Assembly: GCA_964019135.1 (NCBI GenBank)
Contig: OZ025256.1
Coordinates: 14,701,911-14,765,910 of the forward strand
Direction of reading: 5' to 3'
Origin: Arenicola marina
Taxonomy: Eukaryota; Annelida; Polychaeta; Arenicolidae
Length of the DNA stretch: 64,000 bases
In this document: one piece after another, positions 627 to 46,140 of the stretch
Layout: every line of letters starts with the position of its first letter
How positions within the stretch are numbered: position 1 is the first letter of the stretch
Translations under genes and position numbers: made by a program
Notes under the pieces: model-generated
What the model saw: the letters and a program-made list of their open reading frames with translations, nothing else
Database searches by the model: none
Told to the model about the DNA's origin: nothing

Positions 627-758
627 TGTGTACGCCAACGGCAAGGAGCTGGAGCCGGCCCGCCGGGTGACCTTGACCCGCTCCATGCTGCGCAGCTGGG
701 AATCGATCCTCGGACAAATCACGGAGAAGGTTAACCTGACCTCTGGCGCCGCCAGGCG
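627..758 (+). CDS. DCDC2: DCDC2 exon a: first half of the second doublecortin domain
   Basis: The exon lies between acceptor TTGCAG (ending at 626) and donor GCG|GTAAGT. It begins with the last base of a split codon and ends with two bases of one. It encodes VYANGKELEPARRVTLTRS followed by a Trp-containing helix (SWESILGQITEKV), the typical start of a doublecortin fold. A 20-bp-type tandem array runs to within about 15 bp of the acceptor. Confidence 0.85.
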
Positions 759-3700
759 GTAAGTTGAAAGCGGCGTGTCCCTCGTGGTCTTCTGTGCTTC
801 ATGTGCAGCCTGAAGGCTGAGTTTAGGGGCCTCCTTGGTGTAGTGGTTAGCGTACTAGATCCTCGGGCCTCCCTGGTGTAGTGGTTAGCGCACTAGACCG
901 CAGATCAATAGGTCCTGGGGGCCTCCCTGTTGTAGTGGTTAGCGCACTAGATCCTCGGGCCTCCCTGTTGTAGTGGTTAGCGTACTAGATCCTCGGGCCT
1001 CCTTGGTGTAGTGGTTAGCGCACTAGACCGCAGATCAATAGGTCCTGGGGGCCTCCCTGTTGTAGTGGTTAGCGTACTAGATCCTCGGGCCTCCTTGGTG
1101 TAGTGGTTAGCGTACTAGACCGCAGATCAATAGGTCCTGGGGGCCTCCCTGGTGTAGTGGTTAGCGCACTTGACCGTACATCAATAGGTCCTGGTGGCCT
1201 CCCTGGTGTAGTGGTTAGCGCACTAGACCGCAGATCAAGCCTCCCATCATTTATCGTCCGCCGCGATTCCTTCGCCCAGCTTATAATATAGCCCTGAAGT
1301 AGTGCACAAGTGCGACCTAAACACCCAACTCCTTTCATGTCGAAGCATTGATTTGGTACATACTGACAACCAATGTGATATGACGGTGGTTCCTTGTGCA
1401 AAAGTTGCCTTAAACACCATTTCTTGGCACACACAACTATGGCGTAAACCCGGAGCATGCCTTCGTGTCCTTGCAGGCTGTACACAGTGGAGGGACATCT
1501 GGTGGCCGACCCCAGCCTGCTCAAGACCAGTGACCACTACGTGGCGGTCGGGGCCGACGTAGGGGGCTTCAAGCGACTCGAGTATGGCGTCCAGAAACCG
1601 GCCTTCAACAGCTCACCCAAGCAACCGCGCAGGTAAGAGGGCAATCACCATGGCAACCGCGCAGGTAAGAGCGCAATCACCCCTGGCAACCGCGCAGGTA
1701 AGAGCGCAATCACCCATGGCAACCGCGCAGGTAAGAGCGCAATCACCCCTGGCAACCGCGCAGGTAAGAGCGCAATCACCCATGGCAACCACGCAGGTAA
1801 GAGCGCAATCACCCATGGCAACCACGCAGGTAAGAGCGCAATCACCCATGGCAACCACGCAGGTAAGAGCGCAATCACCCATGGCAACCGCGCAGGTAAG
1901 AGCGCAATCACCGCTAGCAACCGCACTAATAAGCACGGCACTGCACAGCAACCGGCTTTGATGCAAAACAGATTCCAGTTCCCTGTCTGCGTGTGTGAGT
2001 TGAACATCACATATCCGGAAATATCTTTTTCCCCACCCAATGAAGCCTTTCGACAGCTTGTATCTGAGTAGCTCTATGTCGTCGCTGATACAATGCCACC
2101 TTGGTACCTTGGGCATTTATAAATTGTCTGACGTTTATGATCAATACGTCACATGTTCAAAGATATGTATTATAAGGTCTTGTTTCCACAGGTTTAAATC
2201 TTTATTTTTTTGGTTCCAATGATTTATAACATGTGTAATCTAGCTTTTAAAATATTTAGCTCTCAATGTTACATGTAACATTAGTACTTTCTACTGTTTA
2301 CTGTTTACATCACCCTAAGCAATGTGTGGTCGTTGCAACTGTACCGGCGGAGTAGAATGCATATCATAAAACGCTGTTTGTACTCACTATTAACAACACA
2401 CTAGCATGTGGCACACTAATAACATGACATAGGCTCATTAATGTGGCTTTTTTTTGCCTTATTTCATGCCTTAAACAGCACAGTTTATAACCTGAGTTAT
2501 TGTAAGCACATCGTGATAAAGGCACCAATATGTGACTGACATTTCATGGTGACGTTCCATGAAAAGCTGCAATGCTGGTCCGGCATTTTAGATTTTCCTT
2601 TCCGATATTTTTCAATCGATCGAGACTTTCCGCCAGAATATTTTTATCCGCTTTGTTGTTTTGTTACTACATGTATGTTCTCGATGCTAAGAAAGTTCGT
2701 GTGTTTACGCAGCTATTCTTGGCGTTCTTGGAGCTCTTGGACCCCAAGGTAATTTTTTTGATCATGGTCAAATCATTTTTGTTTCCCTGTCGTCTTGTTT
2801 TTGCTGTTCTATGTCAGGGTAGACCAAGTAGGTATTGTGTCGGGAGACACGTCACGAGATGTTGGGTGTTTGTGCGCTGCAATTAGACTCCGAATGCCGC
2901 GCGCGTCGCTCACGTAGAACTAATTCACATTATTCTTAATGTCCTAACGCTCTTAATGGAGATTACACCCTTTTTAATAGCGATTCTAGCAACTGATCGG
3001 AGAGGTAATTGTTACATCTCTGGGTGTACCAAGTGTACCTGATCTTTTTTAAGTGCCAACCCGAGCAGTCGACCTTTTTTTCTTTTTCTCCGATAACTGC
3101 ACACTAGAGTAATCTAACGTCTTACGTGGCCGCTAGATGTCGCACGAGCGGTGGATGTCGCTTGTCGGCTTCGTATCGCGTCTGATTCCGTTCGATTGTT
3201 GAATTGACCCTGTTTACTCGGCACGTAACGTACATAATGCCAACGGTCGCTTGTATTCCATAGATCGCGTGCTCCGCTAGGCCTTCCAGCCTAAGCGATC
3301 GGTGTGTGGTTCGAATCGAACCCATGGAAATATTGGCAAATGTTTGTGAAGGCTAAGGATCCCAGGTCTTATTTTGCCAAAAATAGGGGCTGCTCCCGGA
3401 AGGAAAATCTTTCAATGCAAACAAATTGAACGTGTATAGCTTCACAGTTGATCCTGTGTAGCTGCAGCCTGTGTATGACCCCCATTGAGAATGACAATCC
3501 GCCTGTGATTCGGTCGACCGCACAACAGCTCCCCATCCGCACCAAAGATAAAGTGCGTCGAAATAACCTACCAACGACCATAGACTAGATTAGACTGGAG
3601 TACACACAAACCTATAACATAGCTTCCAGATTGCTCTCTCAAAAGATTTTCGCTATATCTATGGTGTCCATCTGATTGCGAATTATGTTTAAATAATAAT

Positions 3701-6020: not shown

Positions 6021-6075
<55 letters not shown>

Positions 6076-10205: not shown

Positions 10206-10471
10206 ACGGCGTCACCGACCAGATGACCACATTGAGACATGACACTGCAAGAGCAACCTTAATTAACCCTTGATGACCCTATTATATGACAGAGCTCAGT
10301 CGCCCCTAAGTCTGTGACGCGGTCCTATACTGGGCTATACAGAGCTGACACTTCATTGATTTCACCTTTAAAAAATTTCTTCAGTACTAAAAAAAACTTT
10401 AATCAGATTATTGATATTGTAAAAAAAATCAGATTGATCTTGTTAGACATATTATAAACTCTTTTTTGACA

Positions 10472-10477
10472 AATAAA
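10472..10477 (+). promoter_or_regulatory. Poly(A) signal for the DCDC2-like gene
   Basis: AATAAA 267 bp after the stop codon, in an A/T-rich stretch just before the 32-bp satellite begins. It implies a 3' UTR of roughly 290 nt. Confidence 0.55.
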
Positions 10478-10529
10478 ATTGGGTTTCAGTTTCCTTCATT
10501 TTAAAGCTTTCATCTGGTGAAATATACAG

Positions 10530-13500
10530 ACGATAGGATGTCTCAGTGACTAAACGGGTGACATAGGATATTTCCGTGACTAAACTGATGTGACATATGA
10601 TGTCTGGGTGACTAAACTGATGTGACACAGGATGTCTCGGTGACTAAACTGATGTGACATATGATGTCTCGGTGACTAAACTGATGTGACATAGGATGTC
10701 TCAATGACTAAACTGATGTGACATAGGATGCCTCACTGCCTCAACTGATGTGACATAGGATGTCTCAGTGACTAAACTGGCGTGACAGGATGTCTCAGTG
10801 ACTAAACTGGCGTGACATAGGATGTCTCGGTGACTAAACTGATGTGACACAGGATGTCTCGGTGACTAAACTGATGTGACATATGATGTCTCGGTGACTA
10901 AACTGATGTGACATAGGATGTCTCAGTGACTAAACTGATGTGACATAGGATGTCTCGGTGACTAAACTGGCGTGACAGGATGTCTCAGTGACTAAACTGG
11001 CGTGACATAGGATGTCTCGGTGACTAAACTGATGTGACACAGGATGTCTCGGTGACTAAACTGATGTGACATATGATGTCTCGGTGACTAAACTGATGTG
11101 ACATAGGATGTCTCAATGACTAAACTGATGTGACATAGGATGCCTCACTGCCTCAACTGATGTGACATAGGATGTCTCAGTGACTAAACTGGCGTGACAG
11201 GATGTCTCAGTGACTAAACTGGCGTGACATAGGATGTCTCGGTGACTAAACTGATGTGACACAGGATGTCTCGGTGACTAAACTGATGTGACATATGATG
11301 TCTCGGTGACTAAACTGATGTGACATAGGATGTCTCAGTGACTAAACTGATGTGACATAGGATGTCTCGGTGACTAAACTGGCGTGACAGGATGTCTCGG
11401 TGACTAAACTGGCGTGACATAGGATGTCTCGGTGACTAAACTGATGTGACATAGGATGTCTCGGTGACTAAACTGATGTGACATAGGATGTCTCAATGAC
11501 TAAACTGGCGTGACATAGGATGTCTCGGTGACTAAACTGATGTGACACAGGATGTCTCGGTGACTAAACTGATGTGACATATGATGTCTCGGTGACTAAA
11601 CTGATGTGACATAGGATGTCTCAGTGACTAAACTGGCGTGACATAGGATGTCTCGGTGACTAAACTGATGTGACACAGGATGTCTCGGTGACTAAACTGA
11701 TGTGACATATGATGTCTCGGTGACTAAACTGATGTGACATAGGATGTCTCAATGACTAAACTGATGTGACATAGGATGCCTCAGTGACTAAACTGGCGTG
11801 ACATAGGATGTCTCAGTGACTAAACTGGCGTGACAGGATGTCTCAGTGACTAAACTGGCGTGACATAGGATGTCTCGGTGACTAAACTGATGTGACCTTG
11901 GATGTCTCAATGACTAAACTGATGTGACATAGGATGCCTCACTGCCTCAACTGATGTGACATAGGATGTCTCACTGACTAAACTGATGTGACATAGGATG
12001 TCTCAGTGACTAAACTGGCGTGACATAGGATGTCTCGGTGACTAAACTGATGTGACATAGGATGTCTCGGTGACTGAACAGGCGTGACATAGGATGTGTC
12101 GGTGACTAAACTGATGTTACATCGGATGTCTCAATGACTAAACTGATGTGACATAGGATGTCTCAGTGACTAAACTGGCGTGACATAGGATATCTCGGTG
12201 ACTAAACTGATGTGACATAGGATGTCTCGGTGACTAAACTGATGTGACATAGGATGTCTCAATGACTAAACTGGCGTGACATAGGATGTCTCGGTGACTA
12301 AACTGATGTGACACAGGATGTCTCGGTGACTAAACTGATGTGACATATGATGTCTCGGTGACTAAACTGATGTGACATAGAATGTCTCAGTGACTAAACT
12401 GATGTGACATAGGATATCTCGGTGACGAAACTGATGTGACCTAGGATGTCTCAATGACTAAAATTATGTGACATAGGATGCCTCACTGCCTCAACTGATG
12501 TGACATGGGATGTCTCACTGACTAAATTGATGTGACATAGGATGTCTCAGTGACTAAACTGATGTGACATAGGATGTCTCAGTGACTAAACTGGCGTGAC
12601 ATAGGATGTCTCAGTGACTAAACTGATGTGACATAGGATGTCTCGGTGACTAAACTGATGTGACATAAGATGTCTCGGTGACTAAACTGATGTGACATAG
12701 GATGTCTCGGTGACTAAACTGATGTGACCTAGGATGTCTCAATGACTAAATTTATGTGACATTATGTGACATATAAACTGGCGTGACATAGGATGTCTCA
12801 GTGACTAAACTGATGTGACATAGGATGTCTCTGACTAAACTGGCGTGACATGGGATGCCTCACTGCCTCAACTGATGTGACATGGGATGTCTCACTGACT
12901 AAACTGGCGTGACATAGGATGTCTCAGTGACTAAACTGATGTGACATAGGATGTCTCTGACTAAACTGGCGTGACATAGGATGTCTCAGTGACTAAACTG
13001 ATGTGACATAGGATGTCTCGGTGACTAAACTGATGTGACCTTGGATGTCTCAATGACTAAACTGATGTGACATAGGATGCCTCACTGCCTCAACTGATGT
13101 GACATAGGATGTCTCAGTGACTAAACTGGCGTGACATAGGATGTCTCGGTGACTAAACTGATGTGACATAAGATGTCTCGGTGACTAAACTGATGTGACA
13201 TAGGATGCCTCAGTGACTAAACTGGCGTGACATAGGATGTCTCAGTGACTAAACTGGCGTGACATGGGATGTCTCGGTGACTAAACTGATGTGACATAGG
13301 ATGTCTCAGTGACTAAACTGGCGTGACATAGGATGTCTCAGTGACTAAACTGATGTGACATAGGATGTCTCAGTGACTAAACTGGCGTGACATGGGATGT
13401 CTCGGTGACTAAACTGATGTGACATAGGATGTCTCAGTGACTAAACTGGCGTGACATAGGATGTCTCAGTGACTAAACTGGCGTGACATGGGATGTCTCG

Positions 13501-16500
13501 GTGACTAAACTGATGTGACATATGATGTCTCGGTGACTAAACTGATGTGACCTAGGATGTCTCAATGACTAAACTTATGTGACATAGGATGCCTCACTGC
13601 CTCAACTGATGTGACATAGGATGTCTCACTGACTAAACTGATGTGACATAGGATGTCTCACTGACTAAACTGATGTGACATAGGATGTCTCAGTGACTAA
13701 ACTGATGTGACATAGGATGTCTCAGTGACTAAACTGGCGTGACATAGGATGTCTCGGTGACTAAACTGATGTGACATAGGATGTCTCAGTGACTAAACTG
13801 GCGTGACATAGGATGTCTCAGTGACTAAACTGGCGTGACATAGGGTGTCTCAGTGACTAAACTGATGTGACATAAGATGTCTCGGTGACTAAACTGATGT
13901 GACATAGGATGTCTCGGTGACTAAACTGATGTGCACTAGGATGTCTCAATGACTAAACTTATGTGACATAGGATGCCTCACTGCCTCAACTGATGTGACA
14001 TGGGATGTCTCGGTGACTAAACTGGATGTCTCAGTGACTAAACTGGCGTGACATGGGATGTCTCAGTGACTAAACTGGCGTGACATGGGATGTCTCGGTG
14101 ACTAAACTGATGTGACATAGGATGTCTCAGTGACTAAACTGGATGTCTCAGTGACTAAACTGGCGTGACATGGGATGTCTCGGTGACTAAACTGGCGTGA
14201 CATAGGATGTCTCGGTGACTAAACTGATGTGACATAGGATGTCTCAGTGACTAAACTGGATGTCTCAGTGACTAAACTGGCGTGACATGGGATGTCTCGG
14301 TGACTAAACTGGCGTGACATAGGATGTCTCGGTGACTAAACTGATGTGACATAGGATGTCTCGGTGACTAAACTGGCGTGACATAGGATGTCTCGGTGAC
14401 TAAACTGATGTGACATAGGATGTCTCGGTGACTAAACTGATGTGACATAGGATGTCTCGGTGACTAAACTGGCGTGACATAGGATGTCTCGGTGACTAAA
14501 CTGGCGTGACATGGGATGTCTCGGTGACTAAACTGATGTGACATAGGATGTCTCGGTGACTAAACTGGCGTGACATAGGATGTCTCGGTGACTAAACTGA
14601 TGTGATATAGGATGTCTCAGTGACTAAACTGATGTGACATAGGATGTGTCGGTGACTAAACTGGCGTGACATAGGATGTCTCGGTGACTAAACTGATGTG
14701 ACATAGGGTGTCTCGGTGACTAAACTGGCGTGACATAGGATGTCTCGGTGACTAAACTGGCGTGACATAGGATGTCTCAGTGACTAAACTGATGTGACAT
14801 AGGATGTCTCAGTGACTAAACTGATGCGACATAAGATGTCTCAGTGACTAAACTGATGCGACATAAGATGTCTCAGTGACTAAACTGATGTGACATAGAA
14901 TGTCTCAGTGACTAAACTGATGCGACATAAGATGTCTCGGTGACTAAACTGATGCGACATAAGATGTCTCAGTGACTAAACTGATGTGACATAGAATGTC
15001 TCAGTGACTAAACTGATGTGACATAGGATGTCTCAGTGACTAAACTGGCGTGACATAGGATGTCTCGGTGACTAAACTGATGTGACATAGGATGTCTCGG
15101 TGACTAAACTGATGTGACATAGGATGTCTCGGTGACTAAACTGATGTGACATAGGATGTCTCGGTGACTAAACTGGCGTGACATAGGATGTCTCGGTGAC
15201 TAAACTGGCGTGACATAGGATGTCTCGGTGACTAAACTGATGTGACATAGGATGTCTCAGTGACTAAACTGATGTGCACTAGGATGTCTCGGTGACTAAA
15301 CTGATGTGACATAGGATGTCTCGGTGACTAAACTGGCGTGACATAGGATGTCTCGGTGACTAAACTGGCGTGACATAGGATGTCTCGGTGACTAAACTGA
15401 TGTGACATAGAATGTCTCAGTGACTAAACTGATGTGACATAGGATGTCTCAGTGACTAAACTGATGCGACATAAGATGTCTCAGTGACTAAACTGATGCG
15501 ACATAAGATGTCTCAGTGACTAAACTGATGTGACATAGAATGACTCAGTGACTAAACTGATGTGACATAGAATGTCTCAGTGACTAAACTGATGCGACAT
15601 AAGATGTCTCAGTGACTAAACTGATGCGACATAAGATGTCTCAGTGACTAAACTGATGTGACATAGAATGTCTCAGTGACTAAACTGATGTGACATAGAA
15701 TGTCTCAGTGACTAAACTGATGTGACATAGAATGTCTCAGTGACTAAACTGATGCGACATAAGATGTCTTAGTGACTAAACTGATGCGACATAGGATGTC
15801 TCACTGACTAAACTGATGTGACACAGGATGTCTCAGTGACTAAACTGATGCGACATAAGATGTCTCAGTGACTAAACTGATGTGACATAGAATGTCTCAG
15901 TGATTAAACTAATGTGGCAGGATGTCTCAGTGACTAAACTGATGTGACATAGAATGTCTCAGTGACTAAACTGATGCGACATAAGATGTCTGTGACTAAA
16001 CTGATGCGACATAGGATGTCTCAGTGACTAAACTGATGCGACATAAGATGTCTCGGTGACTAAACTGATGCGACATAGGATGTCTCAGTGACTAAACTGA
16101 TGCGACATAAGATGTCTCGGTGACTAAACTGATGCGACATAAGATGTCTCAGTGACTAAACTGATGCGACATAAGATGTCTCAGTGACTAAACTGATGTG
16201 ACATAGAATGTCTCAGTGATTAAACTAATGTGGCAGGATGTCTCAGTGACTAAACTGATGTGACATAGAATGTCTCAGTGACTAAACTGATGCGACATAA
16301 GATGTCTCAGTGACTAAACTGATGCGACATAAGATGTCTCGGTGACTAAACTGATGCGACATAGGATGTCTCAGTGACTAAACTGATGCGACATAAGATG
16401 TCTCGGTGACTGAACAGGCGTGACATAGGATGTCTCGGTGACCAAACTGGCGTGACATAGGATGTCTCGGTGACTAAACTGATGCGACATAAGATGTCTC

Positions 16501-16708
16501 AGTGACTAAACTGATGCGACATAGGATGTCTCAGTGACTAAACTGATGCGACATAAGATGTCTCGGTGACTAAACTGATGCGACATAAGATGTCTCAGTG
16601 ACTAAACTGATGCGACATAAGATGTCTCAGTGACTAAACTGATGTGACATAGAATGTCTCAGTGATTAAACTAATGTGGCAGGATGTCTCAGCGACTAAA
16701 CTGATGCG
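10530..16708. repeat. 32-bp satellite, block 1
   Basis: About 190 units of the type GATGTCTCGGTGACTAAACT followed by GATGTGACATAG. Variants (GGCGTGACATAG, GATGCGACATAA, GCCTCACTGCCTCA) recur in order, so there is higher-order structure. It begins about 60 bp past the DCDC2 poly(A) signal. Confidence 0.95.
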
Positions 16709-16711
16709 ACA

Positions 16712-17169
16712 TAGGAAGACCCTTGGTGTGGTTTGATATTGGACTTTCACCAGCGACGCAGGCGGACGGTTACACTGATCTAACTAGACGTAGTGCGTCA
16801 GTGGCGAGGAATTAAGGTAGGAATGGCGGTAACAACGTTATACCAGCCGACAGGTAGCTATAATTAAGGGACGGCGATAGAATAGTGCATCCGCGGGGCT
16901 AAGATAAGTTTTATGACCAAATTATTTAAGCTGCTAAGCTCTCGCCATATTAACACCCAGGGTTGGGGGTTGGGGGGTGATGCTGATACTGTGGAAGGGG
17001 TGTCAATATTAGGGGTATCATCTGTTAGAACCCACGCAATGGATTGTTGCATTGGCAGTAAATGACAGGCGTGAGTCATGTGTGAGCTATATTCAAACAA
17101 TTATTCGCCCTAAGGTTATAGGAATTTCGGAGATTCTGTGTCCCAGTGGCAGATGTCCGAAATAAGGGT
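16712..17169. repeat. 0.46-kb unique segment, copy 1, within the satellite
   Basis: It starts GACCCTTGGTGTGGTTTGAT and ends CAGATGTCCGAAATAAGGGTT. It is about 97-98% identical by eye to 19143-19608. No terminal inverted repeats or coding potential are seen. Confidence 0.9.
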
Positions 17170-19140
17170 TATGTGACATAGAATGTCTCAGTGACTAAAC
17201 TGATGTGACATAGAATGTCTCAGTGACTAAACTTATGCGACATAAGATGTCTCAGTGACTAAACTGATGCGACATAAGATGTCTCAGTGACTAAACTGAT
17301 GTGACATAGAATGTCTCAGTGACTAAACTGATGTGACAGAATGTCTCAGTGACTAAACTGATGTGACATAGAATGTCTCAGTGACTAAACTGATGTGACA
17401 TAGAATGTCTCAGTGACTAAACTTATGCGACATAGAATGTCTCAGTGACTAAACTGATGTGACATAGGATGTCTCAGTGATTAAACTAATGTGGCAGGAT
17501 GTCTCAGTGACTAAACTGATGTGACATAGAATGTCTCAGTGACTAAACTGATGTGACATAGGATGTCTCAGTGATTAAACTGATGTGACATAGAATGTCT
17601 CAGTGACTAAACTGATGTGACATAGAATGTCTCAGTGACTAAACTTATGCGACATAAGATGTCTCAGTGACTAAACTGATGCGACATAAGATGTCTCAGT
17701 GACTAAACTGATGCGACATAAAATGTCTCAGTGACTAAACTGATGTGACACAGGATGTCTCAGTGACTAAACTGATGCGACATAAGATGTCTCAGTGACT
17801 AAACTGATGTGACATAGAATGACTCAGTGACTAAACTGATGCGACATAAGATGTCTCAGTGACTAAACTGATGTGACATAGAATGTCTCAGTGACTAAAC
17901 TGATGTGACAGAATGTCTCAGTGACTAAACTGATGTGACATAGAATGTCTCAGTGACTAAACTGATGTGACATAGAATGTCTCAGTGACTAAACTTATGC
18001 GACATAGAATGTCTCAGTGACTAAACTGATGTGACATAGGATGTCTCAGTGATTAAACTAATGTGGCAGGATGTCTCAGTGACTAAACTGATGTGACATA
18101 GAATGTCTCAGTGACTAAACTGATGTGACATAGGATGTCTCAGTGATTAAACTGATGTGACATAGAATGTCTCAGTGACTAAACTGATGTGACATAGAAT
18201 GTCTCAGTGACTAAACTTATGCGACATAAGATGTCTCAGTGACTAAACTGATGCGACATAAAATGTCTCAGTGACTAAACTGATGCGACATAAAATGTCT
18301 CAGTGACTAAACTGATGTGACACAGGATGTCTCAGTGACTAAACTGATGCGACATAAGATGTCTCAGTGACTAAACTGATGTGACATAGAATGACTCAGT
18401 GACTAAACTGATGCGACATAAGATGTCTCAGTGACTAAACTGATGTGACATAGAATGTCTCAGTGACTAAACTGATGTGACAGAATGTCTCAGTGACTAA
18501 ACTGATGCGACATAAGATGTCTCAGTGACTAAACTGATGCGACATAAGATGTCTCAGTGACTAAACTGATGTGACATAGAATGTCTCAGTGACTAAACTG
18601 ATGTGACATAGAATGTCTCAGTGACTAAACTGATGTGACATAGAATGTCTCAGTGACTAAACTTATGCGACATAAGATGTCTCAGTGACTAAACTGATGC
18701 GACATAAGATGTCTCAGTGACTAAACTGATGCGACATAAAATGTCTCAGTGACTAAACTGATGTGACACAGGATGTCTCAGTGACTAAACTGATGCGACA
18801 TAAGATGTCTCAGTGACTAAACTGATGTGACATAGAATGACTCAGTGACTAAACTGATGCGACATAAGATGTCTCAGTGACTAAACTGATGTGACATAGA
18901 ATGTCTCAGTGACTAAACTGATGTGACAGAATGTCTCAGTGACTAAACTGATGCGACATAAGATGTCTCAGTGACTAAACTGATGCGACATAAGATGTCT
19001 CAGTGACTAAACTGATGTGACATAGAATGTCTCAGTGACTAAACTGATGTGACATAGGATGTCTCAGTGATTAAACTAATGTGGCAGGATGTCTCAGCGA
19101 CTAAACTGATGCGACATGTCTCAGTGACTAAACTGATGCG
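17170..19140. repeat. 32-bp satellite, block 2
   Basis: About 60 units, dominated by the GATGTGACATAGAATGTCTC and GATGCGACATAAGATGTC variants. A marker variant with a shortened unit (GATGTGACAGAATG) recurs at 17330, 17902 and 18474, a 572-bp higher-order period. Confidence 0.93.
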
Positions 19141-19142
19141 AC

Positions 19143-19608
19143 ATAGGAAGACCCGTGGTGTGGTTTGATATTGGACTGTGACTTTCACCAGCGACGCAGG
19201 CGGACGGTTACACTGATCTAACTAGACGTAGTGCGTCAGTGGCGAGGAATTAAGGTAGGAATGGCGGTAACAACGTTATACCAGCCGACAGGTAGCTATA
19301 ATTAAGGGACGGCGATAGAATAGTGCATCCGCGGGGCTAAGACAAGTTTTATGAACAAGTTATTTAAGCTGTTAAGCTCTCGCCATATTAACACCCAGGG
19401 TTGGGGGTTGGGGGGTGATGCTGATACTGTGGAAGGGGTGTCAATATTAGGGGTATCTCCTGTTAGAACCCACGCAATGGATTGTTGCATTGGCAGTAAA
19501 TGACAGGCGTAAGTCATGTGTGAGCTATATTCAAACAATTATTCGCCCTAAGGTTATAGGAATTTCGGAGATTCTGTGTCCCAGTGGCAGATGTCCGAAA
19601 TAAGGGTT
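19143..19608. repeat. 0.46-kb unique segment, copy 2
   Basis: Second copy of 16712-17169 with a six-base insertion near 19176 and a handful of substitutions. It ends the satellite block. Confidence 0.9.
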
Positions 19609-33880: not shown

Positions 33881-33886
33881 ACGTGT

Positions 33887-34509: not shown

Positions 34510-34637
34510 TAGCCACCAGACCAGGAACAGGGTCAGTGCGTGATGCGTGACGCGCATGCGCGACGGAAACCAGGGGGACGCCGTGTAACGCCCCCACCCC
34601 CACACTTTCTGGAGACCCGACCTTAATTATTAACCCC

Positions 34638-35031
34638 TCACGGCTCCATCTGGCGGTACTTCTTGCGCGTGCGCGACACGCGATCCCGGAAGAGGAGCGG
34701 ATCCAGGCGGAGGCCGGTCCGGAGCAGCGGCAGGTACCCGAAGTGGTTGGCGAACAGCCCCACGCAGTGCTGCCGGTCAACGAAGTGTTCGGGGGTCTGC
34801 CAGGGCGAGCGGCCCGGCTCGGCCACCGGGTCGTCGATGGGGACACCCCCGAGGACCGGCGGCGGGGGCGGGGGCGGCGGCACTCCCCGGCGCTGACCCA
34901 GCTTGAGCGGCGGCTGGCGACTCACGTGGCTCACGAGGAAGTTCATGAGGATGTCCTCGCAGTTGTCGGCGCGGGACACGACCTGCCGGAGGGCCGGGCT
35001 GAGCCAGTGGCTGAACAGGTAGCCGTAATAT
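34638..35031 (-). CDS. EXT1: EXT1 last exon (10+11 fused): GT64 core and C terminus
   Basis: Acceptor GTGTCCCACAG; it ends at TGA (34638-34640). It encodes [20 protein letters not shown], then [20 protein letters not shown] with the catalytic-site NCED, an eight-proline run not known to me in vertebrate EXT1, then [13 protein letters not shown] and [20 protein letters not shown]. Human EXT1 has an intron within this stretch; here there is none. The exon is about 36 bp longer than the human pair, which I place around the Pro/Gly insert. Confidence 0.92.
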
Positions 35032-38000
35032 CTGTGGGACACAGGGGGACAGAAATGTTATACTAACAATGCAGGATCAAGTGGTAGAGAAACCTTAATG
35101 TAATCTACCTGTGTACACATAATTATGTTGACACCTTTTAAGGAAATCAAAGATGAAAATGACCACGCCGAGAGCTGACAATATATTTCAAAGTGCAATC
35201 ATTACGTCACCATGTAATGTGCCTTGGCCGCCCGTATCAAAGCAGCCAGTCATTGGTGATCATAACGTCACCGAGCCAGCATGGCCACTGAGTCCCCGAT
35301 AACAAGCTGTTAGAGGCAGCCTCAATAATGGCAGCGGATTCAGATCCATCAATCTGAAGCTCAGTGCGCTACCTACTGAGCCAGAGAGCCGTGAGTGATC
35401 TGTGATTGGCGGATTCGGTTGTGTCTTCGGGAAGGCTGTATCGGCCACCGTTGAGAACACATGCATTAGCTGCGACTGTCCTATTACACAAGGCGGATGG
35501 GGCAATCGTTTGCTCGTTGAACATAAATAAAGTAGCGATTATTGTCATTCATCATCATTATTGGGTTTTTATGACGCCAAATCCGTGAGACCGTTCAAAG
35601 ACGCTGTACGTAGTTGCTCGTGTCCACAAACTGACTGACCTATAACCGCTCTTCCATCAGGGCCCAGCGCTTTGGGCCACCCTCATGCACACATAGTGAC
35701 GCTATGCTAGTGACTGACCTGTGGTAGAAGGCGTATGGGTTAGTCAGTCGCTCGTGTCCACAAACTGACTGACCTATAACCGCTCTTCCATCAGGGTCCA
35801 GCGCTTTGGGCCACCCTCATGCACACATAGTGACGCTATGCTGGTGACTGACCTGTGGTAGAAGGCGGATGGGTTAGTCAGTCGCTCGTGTCCACAAACT
35901 GACTGACCTATAACCGCTCTTCCATCAGGGCCCAGCGCTTTGGGCCACCCTCATGCACACATAGTGACGCTATGCTAGTGACTGACCTGTGGTAGAAGGC
36001 GGATGGGTTAGTCAGTCGCTCGTGTCCACAAACTGACTGACCTATAACCGCTCTTCCATCAGGGCCCAGCGCTTTGGGCCACCCTCATGCACACATAGTG
36101 ACGCTATGCTAGTGACTGACCTGTGGTAGAAGGCGGATGGGTTAGTCAGTCGCTCGTGTCCACAAACTGACTGACCTATAACCGCTCTTCCATCAGGGCC
36201 CAGCGCTTTGGGCCACCCTCATGCACACATAGTGACGCTATGCTGGTGACTGACCTGTGGTAGAAGGCGGATGGGTTAGTCAGTCGCTCGTGTCCACAAA
36301 CTGACTGACCTATAACCGCTCTTCCATCAGGGCCCAGCGCTTTGGGCCACCCTCATGCACACATAGTGACGCTATGCTAGTGACTGACCTGTGGTAGAAG
36401 GCGGATGGGTTAGTGAGTCGCTTGTGTCCACAAACTGACTGACCTATAACCGCTCTTCCATCAGGGCCCAGCGCTTTGGGCCACCCTCATGCACACATAT
36501 TGACGCTATGCTAGTGACTGACCTGTGGTAGAAGGCGGATGGGTTAGTCAGTCGCTCGTGTCCACAAACTGACTGACCTATAACCGCTCTTCCATCAGGG
36601 CCCAGCGCTTTGGGCCACCCTCATGCACACATAGTGACGCTATGCTAGTGACTGACCTGTGGTAGAAGGCGGATGGGTTAGTCAGTCGCTCGTGTCCACA
36701 AACTGACTGACCTATAACCGCTCTTCCATCAGGGCCCAGCGCTTTGGGCCACCCTCATGCACACATAGTGACGCTATGCTGGTGACTGACCTGTGGTAGA
36801 AGGCGGATGGGTTAGTGAGTCGCTTGTGTCCACAAGCTGACTGACCTATAACCGCTCTTCCATCAGGGCCCAGCGCTTTGGGCCACCCTCATGCACACAT
36901 AGTGACGCTATGCTAGTGACTGACCTGTGGTAGAAGGCGGATGGGTTAGTCAGTCGCTCGTGTCCACAAACTGACTGACCTATAACCGCTCTTCCATCAG
37001 GGCCCAGCGCTTTGGGCCACCCTCATGCACACATAGTGACGCTATGCTAGTGACTGACCTGTGGTAGAAGGCGGATGGGTTAGTCAGTCGCTCGTGTCCA
37101 CAAACTGACTGACCTATAACCGCTCTTCCATCAGGGCCCAGCGCTTTGGGCCACCCTCATGCACACATAGTGACGCTATGCTAGTGACTGACCTGTGGTA
37201 GAAGGCGGATGGGTTAGTCAGTCGCTCGTGTCCACAAACTGACTGACCTATAACCGCTCTTCCACCAGGACCCAGCGCTTTGGGCCACCCTCATGCACAC
37301 ATAGTGACGCTATGCTGGTGACTGACCTGTGGTAGAAGGCGGATGGGTTAGTCAGTCGCTCGTGTCCACAAACTGACTGACCTATAACCGCTCTTCCATC
37401 AGGGCCCAGCGCTTTGGGCCACCCTCATGCACACATAGTGACGCTATGCTGGTGACTGACCTGTGGTAGAAGGCGGATGGGTTAGTCAGTCGCTCGTGTC
37501 CACAAACTGACTGACCTATAACCGCTCTTCCATCAGGGCCCAGCGCTTTGGGCCACCCTCATGCACACATAGTGACGCTATGCTGGTGACTGACCTGTGG
37601 TAGAAGGCGGATGGGTTAGTCAGTCGCTCGTGTCCACAAACTGACTGACCTATAACCGCTCTTCCATCAGGGCCCAGCGCTTTGGGCGACCCTCATGCAC
37701 ACATAGTGACGCTATGCTAGTGACTGACCTGTGGTAGAAGGCGTATGGGTTAGTCAGTTGCTCGTGTCCACAAACTGACTGACCTATAACCGCTCTTCCA
37801 TCAGGGCCCAGCGCTTTGGGCCACCCTCATGCACACATAGTGACGCTATGCTGGTGACTGACCTGTGGTAGAAGGCGGATGGGTTAGTCAGTCGCTCGTG
37901 TCCACAAACTGACTGACCTATAACCGCTCTTCCATCAGGGCCCAGCGCTTTGGGCCACCCTCATGCACATATAGTGACGCTATGCTAGTGGCTGACCTGT

Positions 38001-41000
38001 GGTAGAAGGCGGATGGGTTAGTCAGTCGCTCGTGTCCACAAACTGACTGACCTATAACCGCTCTTCCATCAGGGCCCAGCGCTTTGGGCCACCCTCATGC
38101 ACACATAGTGACGCTATGCTAGTGGCTGACCTGTGGTAGAAGGCGGATGGGTTAGTCAGTTGCTCGTGTCCACAAACTGACTGACCTATAACCGCTCTTC
38201 CATCAGGGCCCAGCGCTTTGGGCCACCCTCATGCACACATAGTGACGCTATGCTGGTGACTGACCTGTGGTAGAAGGCGGATGGGTTAGTCAGTCGCTCG
38301 TGTCCACAAACTGACTGACCTATAACCGCTCTTCCATCAGGGCCCAGCGCTTTGGGCCACCCTCATGCACACATAGTGACGCTATGCTAGTGACTGACCT
38401 GTGGTAGAAGGCGGATGGGTTAGTCAGTTGCTCGTGTCCACAAACTGACTGACCTATAACCGCTCTTCCATCAGGGCCCAGCGCTTTGGGCCACCCTCAT
38501 GCACACATAGTGACGCTATGCTGGTGACTGACCTGTGGTAGAAGGCGGATGGGTCAGTCAGTTGCTCGTGTCCACAAACTGACTGACCTATAACCGCTCT
38601 TCCATCAGGGCCCAGCGCTTTGGGCCACCCTCATGCACACATAGTGACGCTATGCTAGTGACTGACCTGTGGTAGAAGGCGTATGGGTTAGTCAGTCGCT
38701 TGTGTCCACAAATTGACTGACCAATAACCGCTCTTCCATCAGGGCCCAGCGCTTTGGGCCACCCTCATGCACACATAGTGACGCTATGCTAATGACTGAC
38801 CTGTGGTAGAAGGCGGATGGGTTAGTCAGTCGCTCGTGTCCACAAACTGACTGACCTATAACCGCTCTTCCATCAGGGCCCAGCGCTTTGGGCGACCCTC
38901 ATGCACACATAGTGACGCTATGCTAGTGACTGACCTGTGGTAGAAGGCGTATGGGTTAGTCAGTTGCTCGTGTCCACAAACTGACTGACCTATAACCGCT
39001 CTTCCATCAGGGCCCAGCGCTTTGGGCCACCCTCATGCACACATAGTGACGCTATGCTGGTGACTGACCTGTGGTAGAAGGCGGATGGGTCAGTCAGTTG
39101 CTCGTGTCCACAAACTGACTGACCTATAACCGCTCTTCCATCAGGGCCCAGCGCTTTGGGCCACCCTCATGCACACATAGTGACGCTATGCTAGTGACTG
39201 ACCTGTGGTAGAAGGCGTATGGGTTAGTCAGTCGCTTGTGTCCACAAACGGACTGACCTATAACCGCTCTTCCATCAGGGCCCAGCGCTTTGGGCCACCC
39301 TCATGCACACATAGTGACGCTATGCTGGTGACTGACCTGTGGTAGAAGGCGGATGAGGTGAGCACCATGGAGTAGTCGTTGGTCCACCGGGAGGAGTAGA
39401 GCCAGCGCCCGGCGCCGTCGTCCCAGTAGTGACTCCGGGCCTCGTACCCGATCAGCCGCTCCGGGAAGTTGCACCACACGTGGAAGGCAAAGTCCACCTG
39501 CGACGGGACACACAAAGAAATGGGTCAGGTCAACGGTCAAAGGTCAAAAGGCGGAAGCTGAAGTCCTCCTGCAACAAGGCATATATAAACAAATTGGTCA
39601 GGTCAAAGGTCAAACGTGGAAGGTAAAGTCCTCCTGTAACAGATCCAGGGTCAGGTCCAAGGTCAAACACAAAGTGGGTCAGTGGTGGACATAGAACTGA
39701 GCGCCCAGCCACAGAGGGGTCAAGATCACATATGGAAGAAAACATTTACCAACAGTGGGGCACACACATCGGTCAGGCCGAAGGTCATACGCCAATGGCT
39801 AAAGGTAATTGGCCATTCAGATATATGTAAGCTATTAAGGTCATACGTTTAAGTCAATATTGGTTATAATAATATCGCTGAATAAAATCTGTCTGTCTAA
39901 TGCTTGTTTAACATATGACCAGATAGACTTTGCGCCGGGACATTCATACAGAAGATGCTCGAAGTCGTGCTCTTCGTTACATTCTTCGCACTGTGCGTCT
40001 TGAGATAGTTTCCATTTATACAGTTTGGGTTTACAAGCCAATGTATGGTGCAGAGTTTTGTAGTTAAACTCGGCTATTTTCTTGTCGAACTTTGTTCTAT
40101 CTTTTTGACTTGTAATTACATGTATATATCTACATTTTCATGTCAAATAAAACATTTAATTAAACATAATACGTTTAAGTCAAAGCCCACCTGCAACCGA
40201 ACACACAAGTCAAGTCAACGGTCTAACATGAAGGACCAAGTCCACCGGTAACTTGACACACCGTCAGTGAGGTCATATAATGGAGGTCAAGGTCGTAGGT
40301 TACAACACGAACACGACACGCAACCCACAGTCACTGGACTTGTGTTACAAAAATTGTAACAGATCTACAGCTACTAAATCATGGCATTGATTAAAGTTAC
40401 TATTACAACAAAAAGTAAACATTCATTGTGATCCAAATCTGGCGGAGAAAAAACGTGTGTACAGTGACGTTGATGTGCTGGTGACGTAACACGCAAGAAG
40501 TAATCTCCGCCAGGGCGAGCGCCAACGACTAACGTTCGTTATTGGCCAGGATTCGCGACTGGCAGCGCCTCCTTAAGGCAGAGTGTTATACAGTGTTTAC
40601 AGCTGTTCCAACAGCCGCGGCGCCTCACGTGATCTGACGGAACACCCCCGCCGCAAAATTTGTTGAAATAGTAACTTTAATTATAATAGATAAGCCATGT
40701 AATATGATGGGAGGTGCTGGGGAGCGGGGTGGGTGTAGGATGGAAGGGGGCGGCTGAGGGGGGGGGGGACCTTGGCAGTGGACCTGCGGTCAGATCGAGA
40801 ACTTAATCCACACTGGTTCCGGGAACGGCACACCGCGACCCCCCACAATCACAGACCGGATGCGACCCTGACACGGCGACTTGGATGGATCCAGAAGGCT
40901 CCCCGGAGCCTGATACTGACCTCGTCCGTGAGCAGCACTTGATCCTGGTCGACGCTGAGCACTGCGTCCGTCCTGATCTCTGGATACGGGAGGAAGCGGG

Positions 41001-44000
41001 CGTCGATCGACTGCAAGGAGACACCACAAGAATGGGTTATTGGTTGGTTGGTTGGTTATTCAGGAAGTTTTAACCACTTTTGGTCATATCGCGTCCATGG
41101 GAGAAGGAAAGGAGAGTGGAGCCATATTTCCGCGGGGTAACCCCTTACTCTTTGCGAAGAAGGACATGGGATCTTTATCTTGCGACCACACAGACATGGC
41201 CACAACAGGGCTCGAACCACTGATCCACGTGCCGTTATAGGCTCTCAGGTGGCCAGAGCACTCAATGCGAGCGCTCTAAGCCACTGAGCTATCGGGGGCG
41301 GCCCCGAATGGGCTCTTGGATCATACCGCAGCCAACAGTGTCAGTCGCCAACATCCGGTCACTGTCGGCCAGCATTGCCCGCCTGTTATATAACATCCGA
41401 TCACCGCCGCGCAGCATTGCTTGCCTGTTATACAACATCCGGTCAAGGTCGCGCTGCATTGCCTGCCTGTTATATAACATTCGTTTTTATTTCGTGGCTT
41501 TTACGGAATATCACGTCCCGATTGATCAACTAATTGAAAACGGGGGCGCGTTTCCATGGCCATCTAGCGAACGGAGAACAGCGCATGCGCAAAGCGCTAA
41601 TACGCAGGCGCAGTACAGCTCGGACAATATCTCATGGCGGACGCGTTTCCATACGGTACCAGACCGACAGATAAAGCCTCTCATCTTACTGCGGGGACAA
41701 TGTGACTCTTCACACAAAATAGAGAATTTACGGTAGATAGAGTTCAAGAGGTAGATTCCAGTTAATTCCACACCCAAGTAGCACTGGAATCACGCAAACG
41801 CCCGTTACACAACTTGACGGCGACAGAATCCAAGCCCCCCTTCCCGTCCCACCTCCAGAAACCTCGAATTCAGGAGCCACGTGGCATGGACTTGACTATT
41901 AGATAACGGACGGCAAAACGAAAGTTGGCGATGCACAAAAAAACGTTCCTGCGTGTACAGTATTGTACTTTGCTCCTCAATAGTAAAAACTATACTGTAA
42001 GGCTGGAGAGCAAAGTTTCCTAGTTTAGTTAGTTCAGTTAAACGATCCTTTCGCATCACTATTGTTTGCCACCACTTCAAAATGAACGGGTTACACACTA
42101 CCATCCTATGAAAGTACCTACCCTCCCCCCACCCCACCGCACATACAATCGCTTTTGTGTGCAAGAAAGCTATAATGGGGTTGGGTGAAACTTGCCCTAG
42201 GTGCAGCATTCACGCGAATCCATGACCTGTTGGTTAATCTGAGCTAGGTGTGTGGGGCAGGGGATGAGGAGGGTCCCTACAATACTTGGGGCCTGGACAA
42301 CCCTGACCGCTACGCACCCACGACCTACATTAGATATTATATTTAGGGTAGCGCGAGTGGAGTGTGTGAGCAAGAGGAACACTAATCATAAAAAGAAATC
42401 ATAAACAGGACCGTTCAGCTCACGGTAAATCCCCCCCCCCCACCATTCTGGCGGGCAGCCCTTCCAGCATCCCTGCGGCGGTACTCACACACACACGGCG
42501 CTGCACTCACTCACACCGTCTACGCCACCCTCCTGGATCCCCCCCCCCCCACCACCTGCCCCCTATCCCCCCCACCAGGGTGTCTGGAGCCGCCACAAAA
42601 CTGACCGCCACGTGACAGGCAGACGGCGCGTCCAGCACGTGCGACGTGACACGTCAGCAGAGTGACGGGACGCGGGTGTTGAGGGGTTGGGGGGGGGGGG
42701 GGGTGGAATCACAGCCTCAGTCAGACCTATCAAGTCTTTCGTCAACGTTCTTTCACTGCCTCCCTCCTCTTCCTCCTCCCTCGATCCTTTTAGCGGCTCC
42801 AACGTTTTAGGACCCTAACAAAGAGGCCAAGCCAGTTACGGAAGTCAATCTTTCTACACCCCCCTTCCACCCTCAAACGTCTCCACCCCTCATCCTCCAT
42901 CCCAATCCCCCACCCTCTCGTCCCAGTTCCCCATAACAACCGCCAGGCCCCTCTCCGGGACAGAGGTGATGGGGGGTGGGGATTGGGTGTTGCCGGTCCA
43001 CATCAGTTGAAAAACTCCTCCCCCCCCCATCCCCCTCCTCTTCAACCTCCCCCTCTCTCGTCTCAAGCGGCAATACGGATCGGCTAGCGTCCCACATATT
43101 TATCACACACATATATACCCTCCACCCCCCGCGCCCCGCACCCCCTCGCGCGTTTTCCCTAATTACATCGGTAACCATTGCAAGCGTTGCGCAATCCAAA
43201 CACACACACACACACTAAAAAAACAGGGAGAGAGAGCAAAAGTTGAACTCGCCGCAGTTTGTGTTACACACCAGCAATCAACAGAGCTGAGCGCGTTCTG
43301 GCCGTGACTGGCCGTCCCCGCAGGGTGCGTCTCACCACCTCTCACCTGCCCGGGGAAGGCTGCTCGAGTTACTAACCGACGGCCCGCAGCCAGCGCTAAC
43401 GGGCTACCACCACTGGCCCGTTAACCTGCTAACGGGGACAGCAGTAAAAGTCATGGGAAATTGCCGACGAATTTTTTGGGGGATTTTCGGTTGGCGTCCG
43501 ACCTCGCACCTGTTCACTAGATGGCGCCACTCTAATTGAAGGCGGCGTTTACGATGCAGAGGCGGCGTGTTTGTAGCGTTGTTCTGGGTGCGGATTTACA
43601 GGAACAGCGAATTCCCGGGGAGGAATGCATGGGGGTGGGGGGGGGGGGGGTCACAGACTGGTACCCGGCACATTTGGATGTTGATATGTATCAGAATTGT
43701 ACATACCTCAGAGACGGTATATCACAGTAAAGTACCTAGTTCTATCTTAACTTGTATGTAGACATTGTAAGAATGCGGTTTATTGCAGTGCTAGCCCTGT
43801 GCGTATCGTGGGGATAACGTATAACGCAACGGACGTATAACGGATGGGGCGTATAACGGACGGGGTGTATAACGGAGTCGGCCGTATAACGCAACGGGGT
43901 GTATAACGGACGGGGCGTAGAACGGACGGGGGTCGGCCTTATAACGGAGTCGGCCGTATAACGGGGTGTCTCGATCGTATACTGGAGGGCGTCGTATAAC

Positions 44001-46140
44001 GAAGGGGTGGTATAACGAATTGTTCGTATAACGGAAGGGATCGTTTAACGGAGTGTGTCGTATAATACAGGGGCAGTATAACGGAAGGGTCGTACGAATG
44101 ACCTGTCATGATTTTGCACGGTATTTCGTCAGTAAAATGTACATATTATAACGAGTATATTATATATACTGCATTCATTGCATCCTAGAATTAGCATGCA
44201 CATTTCGCACATGTGGTACCTTCCACATCACAGAGACGGCACCGTACATGTGGAATAAACACGCTGCAGATGAAGTAAGTTACGGCTAGACAGTACACAC
44301 TAGCACAGTTAGAGCACAGCCACGAGGCGGCTGACTCCAGGTTGGTTGTATATTCAGGACGCTTTAACCAGTTTTAGTGGCTCTAGGTCTTACCGTGATG
44401 TGTTTGTTCACGATGGGGAGTGTACTCGGCACGGGCCACCGGATGTCAGTGGGTATCGGGGAGTCGGTGTGCCACAGCAACAAGACCTGAAAGGACACAG
44501 CCAGGTAAGTACGTTAAGGGTAAGTACGTAAGGGTAAGGACGTAAGGGTAAGTACGCATGGGGCGGGGTTCTGGACCATCTTTGTACACACATAGGCCCC
44601 AATAAAGTGGGCCAAGGGAATATCATTTAGGATAACGACACGGCGGTTCTCGGCACATGTCGGTGGGAGATTCGAACCCGCGACCCGTAAATCTGCATGC
44701 AGTCGAGCACGTTACCTCTCGACTCTTTAACTGATTAACACATGACATAAACATTAAAATAATTACATTTTATTAATTGCATTCCGTCACGAGGGTATGG
44801 TCCATATTGCAATATCATTAAAGTAAATTTACCCGTTATTTCACTGAATATTAAAATGTGGAGCCGGTATCACTGCCACGTTACGACAGCCCACGAACTG
44901 TACTTGCATCAAATGCTTGGCGGGAGTAATACGTAAGCTATGCTGAATCAAAAAACCGCTCACCCAAGTCTATAAGAAGCATTGTATGACTCACACATGT
45001 AATCCCTCCTTGGGCTGGCGTATCACTCACCTAATACATTTGTATATATATATTACATGTGCGATACACCAGGACCGTCGTCATGGTGTGGCTGAGTTCC
45101 CGAACGGGGCTCAGTCGGCTATAGTTACCATGTAAACGAAGGGCGATTTTAGCCGACATAGCCCCGAAGCTGCCTATAACTATGCACGAAACCCCCCCCC
45201 CCCTCCCCACTCCCTCCCCATCCCTGACAGTCGCACCCACCTTATCGAGAGCCTTGGACTTGGTCAGGCTCTTCATCAGCCGGTACAGCGGCGAGGACAA
45301 CATGACATTGGGATTCGTGACGTAGACCACGGCCGTGAAGCGGGTTCCGGGCTCCGTCCCCAGGTGGCGGTAGAAGTAGGGGAAGTCCAGCAGGCTGTCC
45401 GAGAACTCGGGTCGGACAGCCAGCGCCCCCGGCGGCGTGTTCCACACGAAGGCAGTCCGCACGAGGTGTTTGTCAACCCGGTCCTTCATGATCTGTGGGA
45501 GTGGGGGTTAGGGGGGGGGGAGTAGGTAAAGGGTCATCATCACTGTAATGGTGGTAGGTTGGTAAGCAGCTAGATTTAATCAGCATTATTATTACTGGAT
45601 AAGGCTCAGGGTACAGGCAGGCAGGAAGGCTCAGGGTGTACACGACTTGGTGTTACTCACCTCTAGTGTGGTGTGGACCATCTTACCCACCTCTAGTGTG
45701 GTGTGGACCATCTTACTCACCTCTAGTGGGGTGTGGACCATCTTACTCCCCTGTAGTGTGGTGTGGACCATCTTACCCACCTCTAGTGTGGTGTGGACCA
45801 TCTTACTCACCTCTAGTGGGGTGTGGACCATCTTACTCCCCTGTAGTGTGGTGTGGACCATCTTACTCACCTCTAGTGGGGTGTGGACCATCTTACTCAC
45901 CTCTAGTGGGGTGTGGACCATCTTACTCACCTCTAGTGTGGTGTGGACCATCTTATCCACCGCTAGCGTGGTGTGGACGATCTTACCCATTGCTAGTGTG
46001 GTGTGGACCATCTTACTCACCTCTAGTGTGGTGTGGACCATCTTCTCGATGGAGGAGAAGTAGGTCTCCCACAGGAACTGAGTCTGCTGCCTCAGTGCCA
46101 GGATGTCGGCGTGGCTCAGCGAGCGAACCACGGACGGGAT
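34638..46140 (-). CDS. EXT1: EXT1 exostosin glycosyltransferase, 3' part (six exons, span)
   Basis: Partial gene on the minus strand. In transcript order the exons are 46140-46021, 45492-45241, 44486-44394, 41010-40921, 39497-39337 and 35031-34638. The phases agree and give 369 residues plus a stop. It covers the end of the GT47 region and the whole GT64 domain of a type II Golgi protein. EXT1 works with EXT2 to polymerise heparan sulfate by alternating GlcA and GlcNAc transfer. Visible signatures: [16 protein letters not shown], the DxD metal motif in [40 protein letters not shown] and the terminal [12 protein letters not shown]. The C-terminal pattern fits EXT1 rather than EXT2 or EXTL proteins. 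Exon lengths 120, 93, 90 and 161 bp are close or equal to human exons 4, 7, 8 and 9 as I remember them. Exons 1-3 are not found in the window. Confidence 0.92.
35252..35395 (-). mobile_element. tRNA-like SINE fragment in the last EXT1 intron
   Basis: On the minus strand, CTCTGGCTCAGTAGGTAGCG is an A-box head; the B box is weak. Only a fragment. Confidence 0.4.
35617..39340 (-). repeat. 134-bp x 28 array across the 5' splice site of EXT1 exon 9
   Basis: 28 highly uniform copies at an exact 134-bp period. On the minus strand each unit contains CATCCGCCTTCTACCACAG (the last 19 nt of the exon) followed by the donor GTCAGTCACC. The first copy is the real exon end at 39337. The array fills nearly all of the intron. 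Confidence 0.96.
39337..39497 (-). CDS. EXT1: EXT1 exon 9 equivalent
   Basis: 161 bp, phase 0 to phase 2; acceptor CCGTCGCAG, donor CACAG|GTCAGT. It encodes [20 protein letters not shown] and [20 protein letters not shown], ending SSAFYH. The length matches the human exon. The last 19 nt plus the donor recur in each of 28 copies of a 134-bp array downstream. Confidence 0.93.
39841..40183 (-). mobile_element. Non-LTR retrotransposon fragment, C-terminal Cys/His region, with 15-bp target duplication
   Basis: On the minus strand an open frame of about 95 codons includes [20 protein letters not shown] and [20 protein letters not shown]. This is the zinc-knuckle-like end of LINE reverse transcriptase ORFs. 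It is flanked by the direct repeat ATACGTTTAAGTCAA (39843-39857 and 40169-40183). It is 5'-truncated and inactive. Confidence 0.75.
40921..41010 (-). CDS. EXT1: EXT1 exon 8 equivalent with DxD motif
   Basis: 90 bp, phase 0; acceptor CTCCTTGCAG, donor GAG|GTCAGT. It encodes [20 protein letters not shown]. The Asp-Gln-Asp sits where GT64 enzymes have the DxD that holds Mn2+ and the UDP-sugar, so the metal site looks intact. Confidence 0.92.
41036..41297 (-). mobile_element. SINE family B, near full length
   Basis: The reverse complement of the copy at 9600: tail GGTTGGTTGGTTATTCAGGA, body TACTCTTTGCGAAGAAGG, B box GGGCTCGAACCACTG, head TAAGCCACTGAGCTATCG. It lies 25 bp upstream of the EXT1 exon 8 acceptor. 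Confidence 0.82.
41341..41483. repeat. 42-bp tandem triplication
   Basis: Three diverged copies with the core GCATTGCCCGCCTGTTATAT and AACATCCGGTCA. Confidence 0.85.
41500..43800. other. EXT1 intron, C/G-run-rich unique sequence
   Basis: Intron between the exon 7 and exon 8 equivalents. It has many poly-C and poly-G runs (42430, 42540, 42690, 43020, 43640). No exon or element can be supported. Confidence 0.5.
43808..44095. repeat. ~17-bp irregular minisatellite
   Basis: Variants of CGTATAACGGACGGGGT; 16 or more copies with length variation. Confidence 0.85.
44341..44385 (-). mobile_element. SINE family B tail fragment
   Basis: GGTTGGTTGTATATTCAGGA and GCTTTAACCAGTTTTAG match the 3' tail of family B. 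It abuts the EXT1 exon 7 donor by 10 bp. Confidence 0.5.
44394..44486 (-). CDS. EXT1: EXT1 exon 7 equivalent
   Basis: 93 bp, phase 0; acceptor TCCTTTCAG, donor ACG|GTAAGA. It encodes [20 protein letters not shown] and ends VNKHIT. It corresponds to the 'vLWn.d.plP...RWP' segment at the start of GT64 and is one codon shorter than the human exon. Confidence 0.9.
44643..44733 (-). mobile_element. tRNA-derived SINE head, third type
   Basis: On the minus strand an A-box-like GAGAGGTAACGTGCTCGAC and B box GGGTTCGAATCTCCC lie at tRNA-like spacing. There is no acceptor-stem pairing good enough to call a functional tRNA. Confidence 0.5.
45241..45492 (-). CDS. EXT1: EXT1 exon 5+6 equivalent (fused)
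   Basis: 252 bp; acceptor CCCACAG, donor AAG|GTGGGT, phase 0 at both ends. It encodes [20 protein letters not shown] through [21 protein letters not shown] to [10 protein letters not shown]. The length equals the sum of human exons 5 and 6 (133+119 by memory), so the human intron between them is absent here. Confidence 0.92.
45661..46050 (-). repeat. 30-bp x 13 array across the 5' splice site of EXT1 exon 4
   Basis: Each 30-bp unit is the last 24 nt of the exon (coding KMVHTTLE) plus the first 6 nt of the intron (GTGAGT). There are twelve copies beyond the real junction. The frame [10 protein letters not shown] is open across all copies. Some copies have lost the GT (CAGGGGAGT, GCAATGGGT), others keep GTGAGT or GTGGGT. 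Confidence 0.95.
46021..46140 (-). CDS. EXT1: EXT1 exon 4 equivalent
   Basis: 120 bp, phase 0 at both ends; acceptor GGGTTTTAG, donor GAG|GTGAGT. It encodes [20 protein letters not shown] and then [20 protein letters not shown]. Both edges of this exon are duplicated into the flanking introns: a 30-bp array at the donor side and a ~110-130-bp degenerate array at the acceptor side. Confidence 0.92.

Follow-up and report, generated by a model that had tools for sequence, protein, structure and literature searches.

Minisatellites whose repeat unit straddles an exon-intron boundary have been described in amphioxus, where those of the Adh3 gene were named 'mirages', the globin genes BflGb6 and BflGb9 carry similar repeats, and a role in intron gain has been proposed (PMC3087553). 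Introns are also reported to arise by duplication of a splice-site-bearing segment, in ATP2A1 and, with 24-bp AGGT repeats, in fission yeast (PMC4974935), and earthworm metallothionein genes contain intronic minisatellites whose arrays lie within intron 1 (PMC12783039). Here we describe junction-spanning minisatellites in a 64,000-nucleotide stretch of an Arenicola marina contig (OZ025256.1, hereafter the window), together with a genome sample in which 5′ splice sites (donors) lie in the first copy of a tandem repeat about five times as often as points within the same introns.

A sequence-only reading of the window had placed three donors and one acceptor within arrays whose unit spans the junction, and all four exist: donor 1633 in a plus-strand gene with a doublecortin (DCX) domain, and donors 46020 and 39336 and acceptor 39497 in an EXTL3-like exostosin gene on the minus strand (Table 1). 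The donor periods it gave (33, 30 and 134 bp) hold, whereas its acceptor period of ~110-130 bp amounts to about two units of 65-71 nt. The units look unrelated to one another and differ in length, as would be expected if, as was proposed, they arose independently. The 'about 13 donors' of that reading could not be reproduced; counting only junctions with protein support, we place 7 donors and 7 acceptors, with spanning copies at 3/7 and 1/7 respectively. Arrays recognized by Tandem Repeats Finder (TRF) make up 42% of the window and points within a founder unit are expected at 3.1%, giving a chance of 0.001 for at least three hits among 7 donors and of 0.007 among 13. These values are post hoc, and the real test is the independent genome sample.

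The arrays resemble the amphioxus mirages in two respects. First, the units straddle the exon-intron boundary at donors or acceptors, with lengths of 10 to ~160 bp in amphioxus (PMC3087553), and second, AG/GT signals are present in many copies, not all, there and here. They differ in that mitochondrial gene order places the host among the annelids, outside the cephalochordate range of the reported cases, and in that a donor excess over background and a hot zone of ~160 bp are measured here. With ATP2A1 and the fission yeast AGGT repeats they share tandem duplication of a splice-site-bearing segment; however, the copies make the intron there, whereas here the arrays of two EXTL3-like introns stop, at 45653 and 35612, short of the acceptors at 45492 and 35031, where the best copies of the 24-mer defined below reach 11/24 and 15/24. 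The earthworm metallothionein genes offer a parallel in having large tandem arrays in introns of annelid genes, but in the available account of the intron 1 arrays no junction-spanning unit is reported (PMC12783039). A literature search, largely without subscription papers, found no report of a donor-wide excess or of an annelid junction-spanning case. The amphioxus precedent to which the sequence-only reading had pointed is thus a true one.

The sample comes from one genome, an 867-Mb assembly of 762 contigs (those of contigs 1-20 that were used and have a stated length measure 33-77 Mb), and consists of genome-wide Pfam exon matches in four conserved gene families: kinesin, chaperonin (TCP1), myosin and dynein. 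Altogether 275 of 288 matches entered, those dropped being 8/133 for kinesin (5 on small contigs and 3 others), 3/49 for chaperonin, 2/29 for dynein and 0/77 for myosin. Stretches were picked blind to repeats, either by match number or as adjacent exon pairs in listing order, and splice sites were called with a generic position matrix, from the reading frame and, for exon pairs, by phase agreement; exon matches lacking enough flank or an acceptable splice site yielded no junction. Of 114 donors called, three at a profile end were removed, leaving 111. A junction was scored as lying in a first copy when the 24-mer around it (16 exonic and 8 intronic nt) had a further copy, matching in 18 or more letters, towards the intron and none towards the exon. 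Copies were sought within 350 nt in the enrichment tests (450 and 800 in other steps), and the background was the same question asked at points +120 to +400 in the same introns, in 20,000 draws of one point per donor.

Thirteen of the 111 donors (12%) lie in a first repeat copy, against 2.41 expected, and none of the 20,000 draws reaches 13 (the maximum is 10). One further donor (L035, at 3553), copied to either side, stands outside the 13. The comparison of donors with intron points for which the sequence-only reading had asked thus returns an excess of about five-fold in the four-family sample, and it holds under several variations. First, when at least 22/24 identities are demanded there are still 13 donors against 2.17 expected, and six such cases were already present in the initial 37 introns. 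Second, the excess is seen both for pair-resolved donors (6/42 versus 0.75) and for single-exon calls (7/69 versus 1.61). Third, it recurs in both batches, with 9/73 versus 1.39 in batch one and 4/38 versus 0.97 in batch two (P 0.009). Fourth, kinesin (6/45) and myosin (5/36) are each significant. Fifth, an independent null based on TRF gives 2.7% in 20 loci, alongside the window value given above. Exon GC content was considered as the cause of the excess and rejected, the GC-matched expectation being just 2.56.

The excess has a defined shape around the donor. The rate of first copies is 0-2% at exonic points over 48 nt from the donor, climbs to 12-14% at 0 to +24, and averages ~2% at +120 to +400. 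Left array edges occur at 2.1-2.5 per kb between -60 and +100 around donors and at 0.7-1.0 per kb beyond (runs merged over 12 nt), and among the 95 donors without a spanning array they are again denser nearby, at 2.0 per kb from -8 to +50 and 1.5 from +50 to +100, as against 0.4-0.74 farther away (runs merged over 40 nt). Since the edge excess persists at donors that have no copy, the arrays that span junctions appear to be the exonic flank of a donor-centred zone. Seeding of arrays by the donor motif itself was rejected: strong intronic GT sites are at background (5/166 sense, 2/69 antisense), so the motif alone is insufficient. The other intronic GT classes, of which the weak and negative score classes were thinned to a quarter, range from 1.0% (2/201, sense, middle score) to 5.0% (7/139, antisense, middle score).

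At acceptors the picture is weaker. Pooled, 7/113 lie in a first copy against 4.05 expected (P 0.09); among the first 79 there were 7, where 3.06 are expected (P 0.023), yet their GC-matched expectation is 4.6, and the further 34 gave none against 1.0. The general claim that minisatellites nucleate at exon-intron junctions is thus borne out at donors and not established at acceptors.

We interpret these repeats as minisatellites of the mirage type that are common here because tandem duplications are born preferentially in donor-proximal DNA, a hot zone reaching from about -60 to +100, and we assign this reading a probability of roughly 0.57. A local tandem duplication would cover the last part of an exon together with the first part of the following intron, and 5′ splice sites would be places where such duplications are born, and not simply retained, at a raised rate. 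One in which the donor is copied would be tolerated because one intact exon end remains, provided that the first donor is still the one used. The array would then grow within the intron, presumably by slippage or unequal exchange, to as many as ~28 copies. As to the physical cause we can offer guesses: transcription-linked breaks or nicks, R-loops, chromatin at exon ends, or end-joining repair. The stronger proposition, that 5′ splice sites are mutational hotspots in this lineage at which duplications keep arising through a transcription- or splicing-linked process, with about one donor in eight multiplied, is tentative, and we put it at somewhat short of an even chance.

Several points weigh against the interpretation as a donor-centred hot zone. 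The donors and acceptors are predictions from homology and the matrix, and the chaperonin (1/22) and dynein (1/8) donors are not significant singly. By reasoning, a constrained exon copy may keep junction repeats recognizable for up to about twice as long, and when donors are set against 2.4 times the background (this ~2-fold visibility times 1.2 for array length) P becomes 0.005 and not 1e-6. The edge counts may take one array repeatedly. A direct comparison of donors with acceptors, using a run-based count, gives 16/111 versus 8/113 (Fisher P 0.087), so that the contrast between them is suggestive only and, taken with the acceptor P of 0.09, the excess is claimed for donors alone. Finally, a single genome does not distinguish a bias in birth from a difference in retention.

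The best rival supposes that the birth of duplications is raised at both exon edges, and that those spanning acceptors are purged while those spanning donors are tolerated, the reason for purging being that the spliceosome would take the first AG and add letters to the mRNA. In keeping with this, right array edges are mildly denser beside acceptors (2.0 per kb within 50 nt versus 0.95-1.2 beyond), and the AG is lost from the acceptor copies in two short-period cases; nevertheless, 5/7 of the listed acceptor copies retain it, and the purging is itself a supposition. In the window, acceptor 39497 has two degenerate upstream copies, spaced by 71 and 65 nt as judged by eye; the better one (19/24) lies at 136 nt, and the copy closer to the junction, at 71 nt, was identified by eye. 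We regard this explanation as unlikely.

It seems less likely still that selection keeps the arrays because spare donors aid or regulate splicing. The sample yields 14 donor repeats when the one copied on both sides is added to the 13 counted. They have best-match periods of 37-128 nt, with basic units down to 32 by eye, an exon share of 16-79 nt and from about one to twenty copies; the window had suggested a fixed exon side of ~20 nt, which does not hold across the sample. Array donors score higher as splice sites than the others (5.7 versus 4.6, n=14 versus 97), the GT is kept in 12/14 of the best-matching copies (a choice that favours intact copies), and in nine multi-copy arrays, three from the window and six sampled, it is intact in 96/99 intronic copies. 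That figure, however, is about what a divergence of 1.8% per letter yields: departure from the consensus is 1.8% at donor letters, 1.8% at exon-derived letters and 3.8% in the rest, the last being inflated by register shifts. Whether 'selection for extra donors', as the sequence-only reading had put it, leaves a trace depends on the arrays included. All nine together show no difference (variable columns 9/81 at the donor versus 13/130 exon-derived), but the 30-bp array contributes 13/16 of the donor-letter changes, and without it donor columns vary least (2/72 versus 11/118 exon-derived, P 0.14, and 15/137 near-intron, P 0.06). The evidence for selection on the copied donors is therefore mixed.

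Reading frame adds to the case against selection. In-frame units are not the rule, only 2/14 periods being multiples of 3, and in 2/3 window arrays splicing at any donor but the first would introduce a stop: past the first donor of the 33-bp array the frame hits a stop immediately, and past that of the 134-bp array it runs into one. In the 30-bp array the frame is open through every copy, so downstream donors would merely lengthen the protein, and the GT is kept in 9/12 intronic copies. The hot zone, moreover, also holds arrays that leave the donor out.

A strand-biased G-run signature, such as R-loops might leave, was sought at the 14 array donors and at 31 intronic first copies, and none was found. 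Array donors appeared G-rich at first, but when one unit only is counted GGGG occurs in 4/14 against 1.1 expected (P 0.02) and CCCC in 4/14 against 1.2, and both runs are about twice as common as expected in the intronic first copies (5 and 8 of 31), which argues against a strand signature.

That minisatellites are so dense here that some junctions are struck by chance would suit the very high array density of the window and the near-background acceptors, but we consider it improbable given donors at about five times an empirical background in both batches. Least probable of all is that the conserved exonic half of a first copy simply keeps junction arrays recognizable longer, an effect expected on general grounds at both junctions (acceptors are ~1.7-fold enriched, not significantly) but at most two-fold or so by reasoning, against 5.4-fold for donors with an excess that persists at the stricter identity.

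The EXTL3-like exons of the window were placed by tblastn with a human EXTL3 fragment as query, to which the exon end at donor 46020 aligns at 72% over 25 aa. The other DCX donor, at 759, is without a spanning copy (best 12/24).

Table 1. Exons and junction-spanning arrays of the two window genes, in window coordinates.
Feature	Position	Strand	Basis or remark
DCX domain gene exon	627..758	+	PF03607, E 6.8e-16, both exons translated as one
Following DCX exon, donor at 1633	1477..1632	+	PF03607 match on the joined translation of both exons
33-bp array, 9.5 copies, over donor 1633	1613..1924	+	Unit: last 17-20 exonic nt, donor GTAAGAG and intron
Final EXTL3-like exon, glycosyltransferase 64 domain, stop codon	34638..35031	-	PF09258, E 8.8e-52; tblastn
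134-bp array, ~28 copies, over donor 39336	35612..39355	-	Unit has ~19 exonic nt and donor GTCAGTC
EXTL3-like exon, with copies at acceptor 39497 and donor 39336 alike	39337..39497	-	tblastn
Degenerate acceptor-spanning copies, limits approximate	39470..39660	-	AG and ~20 exon-like nt each
EXTL3-like exon	40921..41010	-	tblastn; junctions without spanning copy
EXTL3-like exon	44394..44486	-	tblastn; junctions without spanning copy
EXTL3-like exon	45241..45492	-	tblastn; junctions without spanning copy
30-bp array, 13 copies, over donor 46020	45653..46044	-	Unit: 24 exonic nt, donor and intron
EXTL3-like exon end, donor at 46020	46021..46092	-	tblastn; upstream exon limit not placed

Other repeats are present in the window. 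Near the DCX exons, at 827-1238, is a nested array with periods of 38, 54, 92 and 130 bp whose unit contains TTGTAGTGGTTAGCGCACTAGACC; by eye only it has a tRNA-derived look, and it gave no hit in Rfam or with ARAGORN. A genome comparison of positions 627-1200 returned at least 168 matches including the query itself, many of them side by side. A 32-bp array of ~270 copies, with inner rows of 21 and 53 bp, occupies 8.6 kb at 10533-19148, and a 65-bp array of 43 copies at 60564-63359 matches at 99% and is apparently very young. An open frame of 307 codons on the plus strand (23545-24468) encodes a 20-residue repeat (a 60-bp array); it matches no Pfam family above the cut-off and may be a repeat within an exon or an intronic array that happens to be open. 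A run of 200 N at 54574-54773 lies where a 15-bp array ends and may be an assembly gap or a masked stretch, and the window as a whole has no Rfam match at the gathering score.

Two observations concern the sampled loci. In a myosin head gene (G000:C4:367768-384767; L020 and L029) similar exon matches are clustered, covering profile positions ~110-154 and ~590-640 several times each, and these clusters look like sets of mutually exclusive exons. Long kinesin stretches on small contigs (L009, L010, L012 and L013, on C390, C536 and C504) possibly belong to another organism.

The mitochondrial genes are arranged nad3-trnS-nad2-cox1-trnN-cox2-trnD-atp8-trnY-trnG-cox3, with cox1 identified by Pfam and the tRNAs by ARAGORN; the names of the remaining genes are putative. 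In a sipunculan the corresponding order is cox1-trnN-cox2-trnD-atp8-trnY-trnE-trnG-cox3, and in annelids nad3 lies between nad1 and nad2; molluscs and brachiopods are patterned otherwise (PMC2639372). On the basis of that account and of the usual annelid order, the arrangement fits an annelid and not amphioxus.

Junction-spanning minisatellites, reported before from single amphioxus genes, thus become, through a donor excess of about five-fold over unrelated genes, a measurable mutational or selective pattern in another phylum, one that ties the origin of introns and of alternative splice sites to a process observable in populations. Gene predictors may face many duplicated donors in such genomes. 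If the hotspot reading is true, there would be a steady supply of copied splice sites, introns would grow, and new exons and introns would have raw material from which to form.

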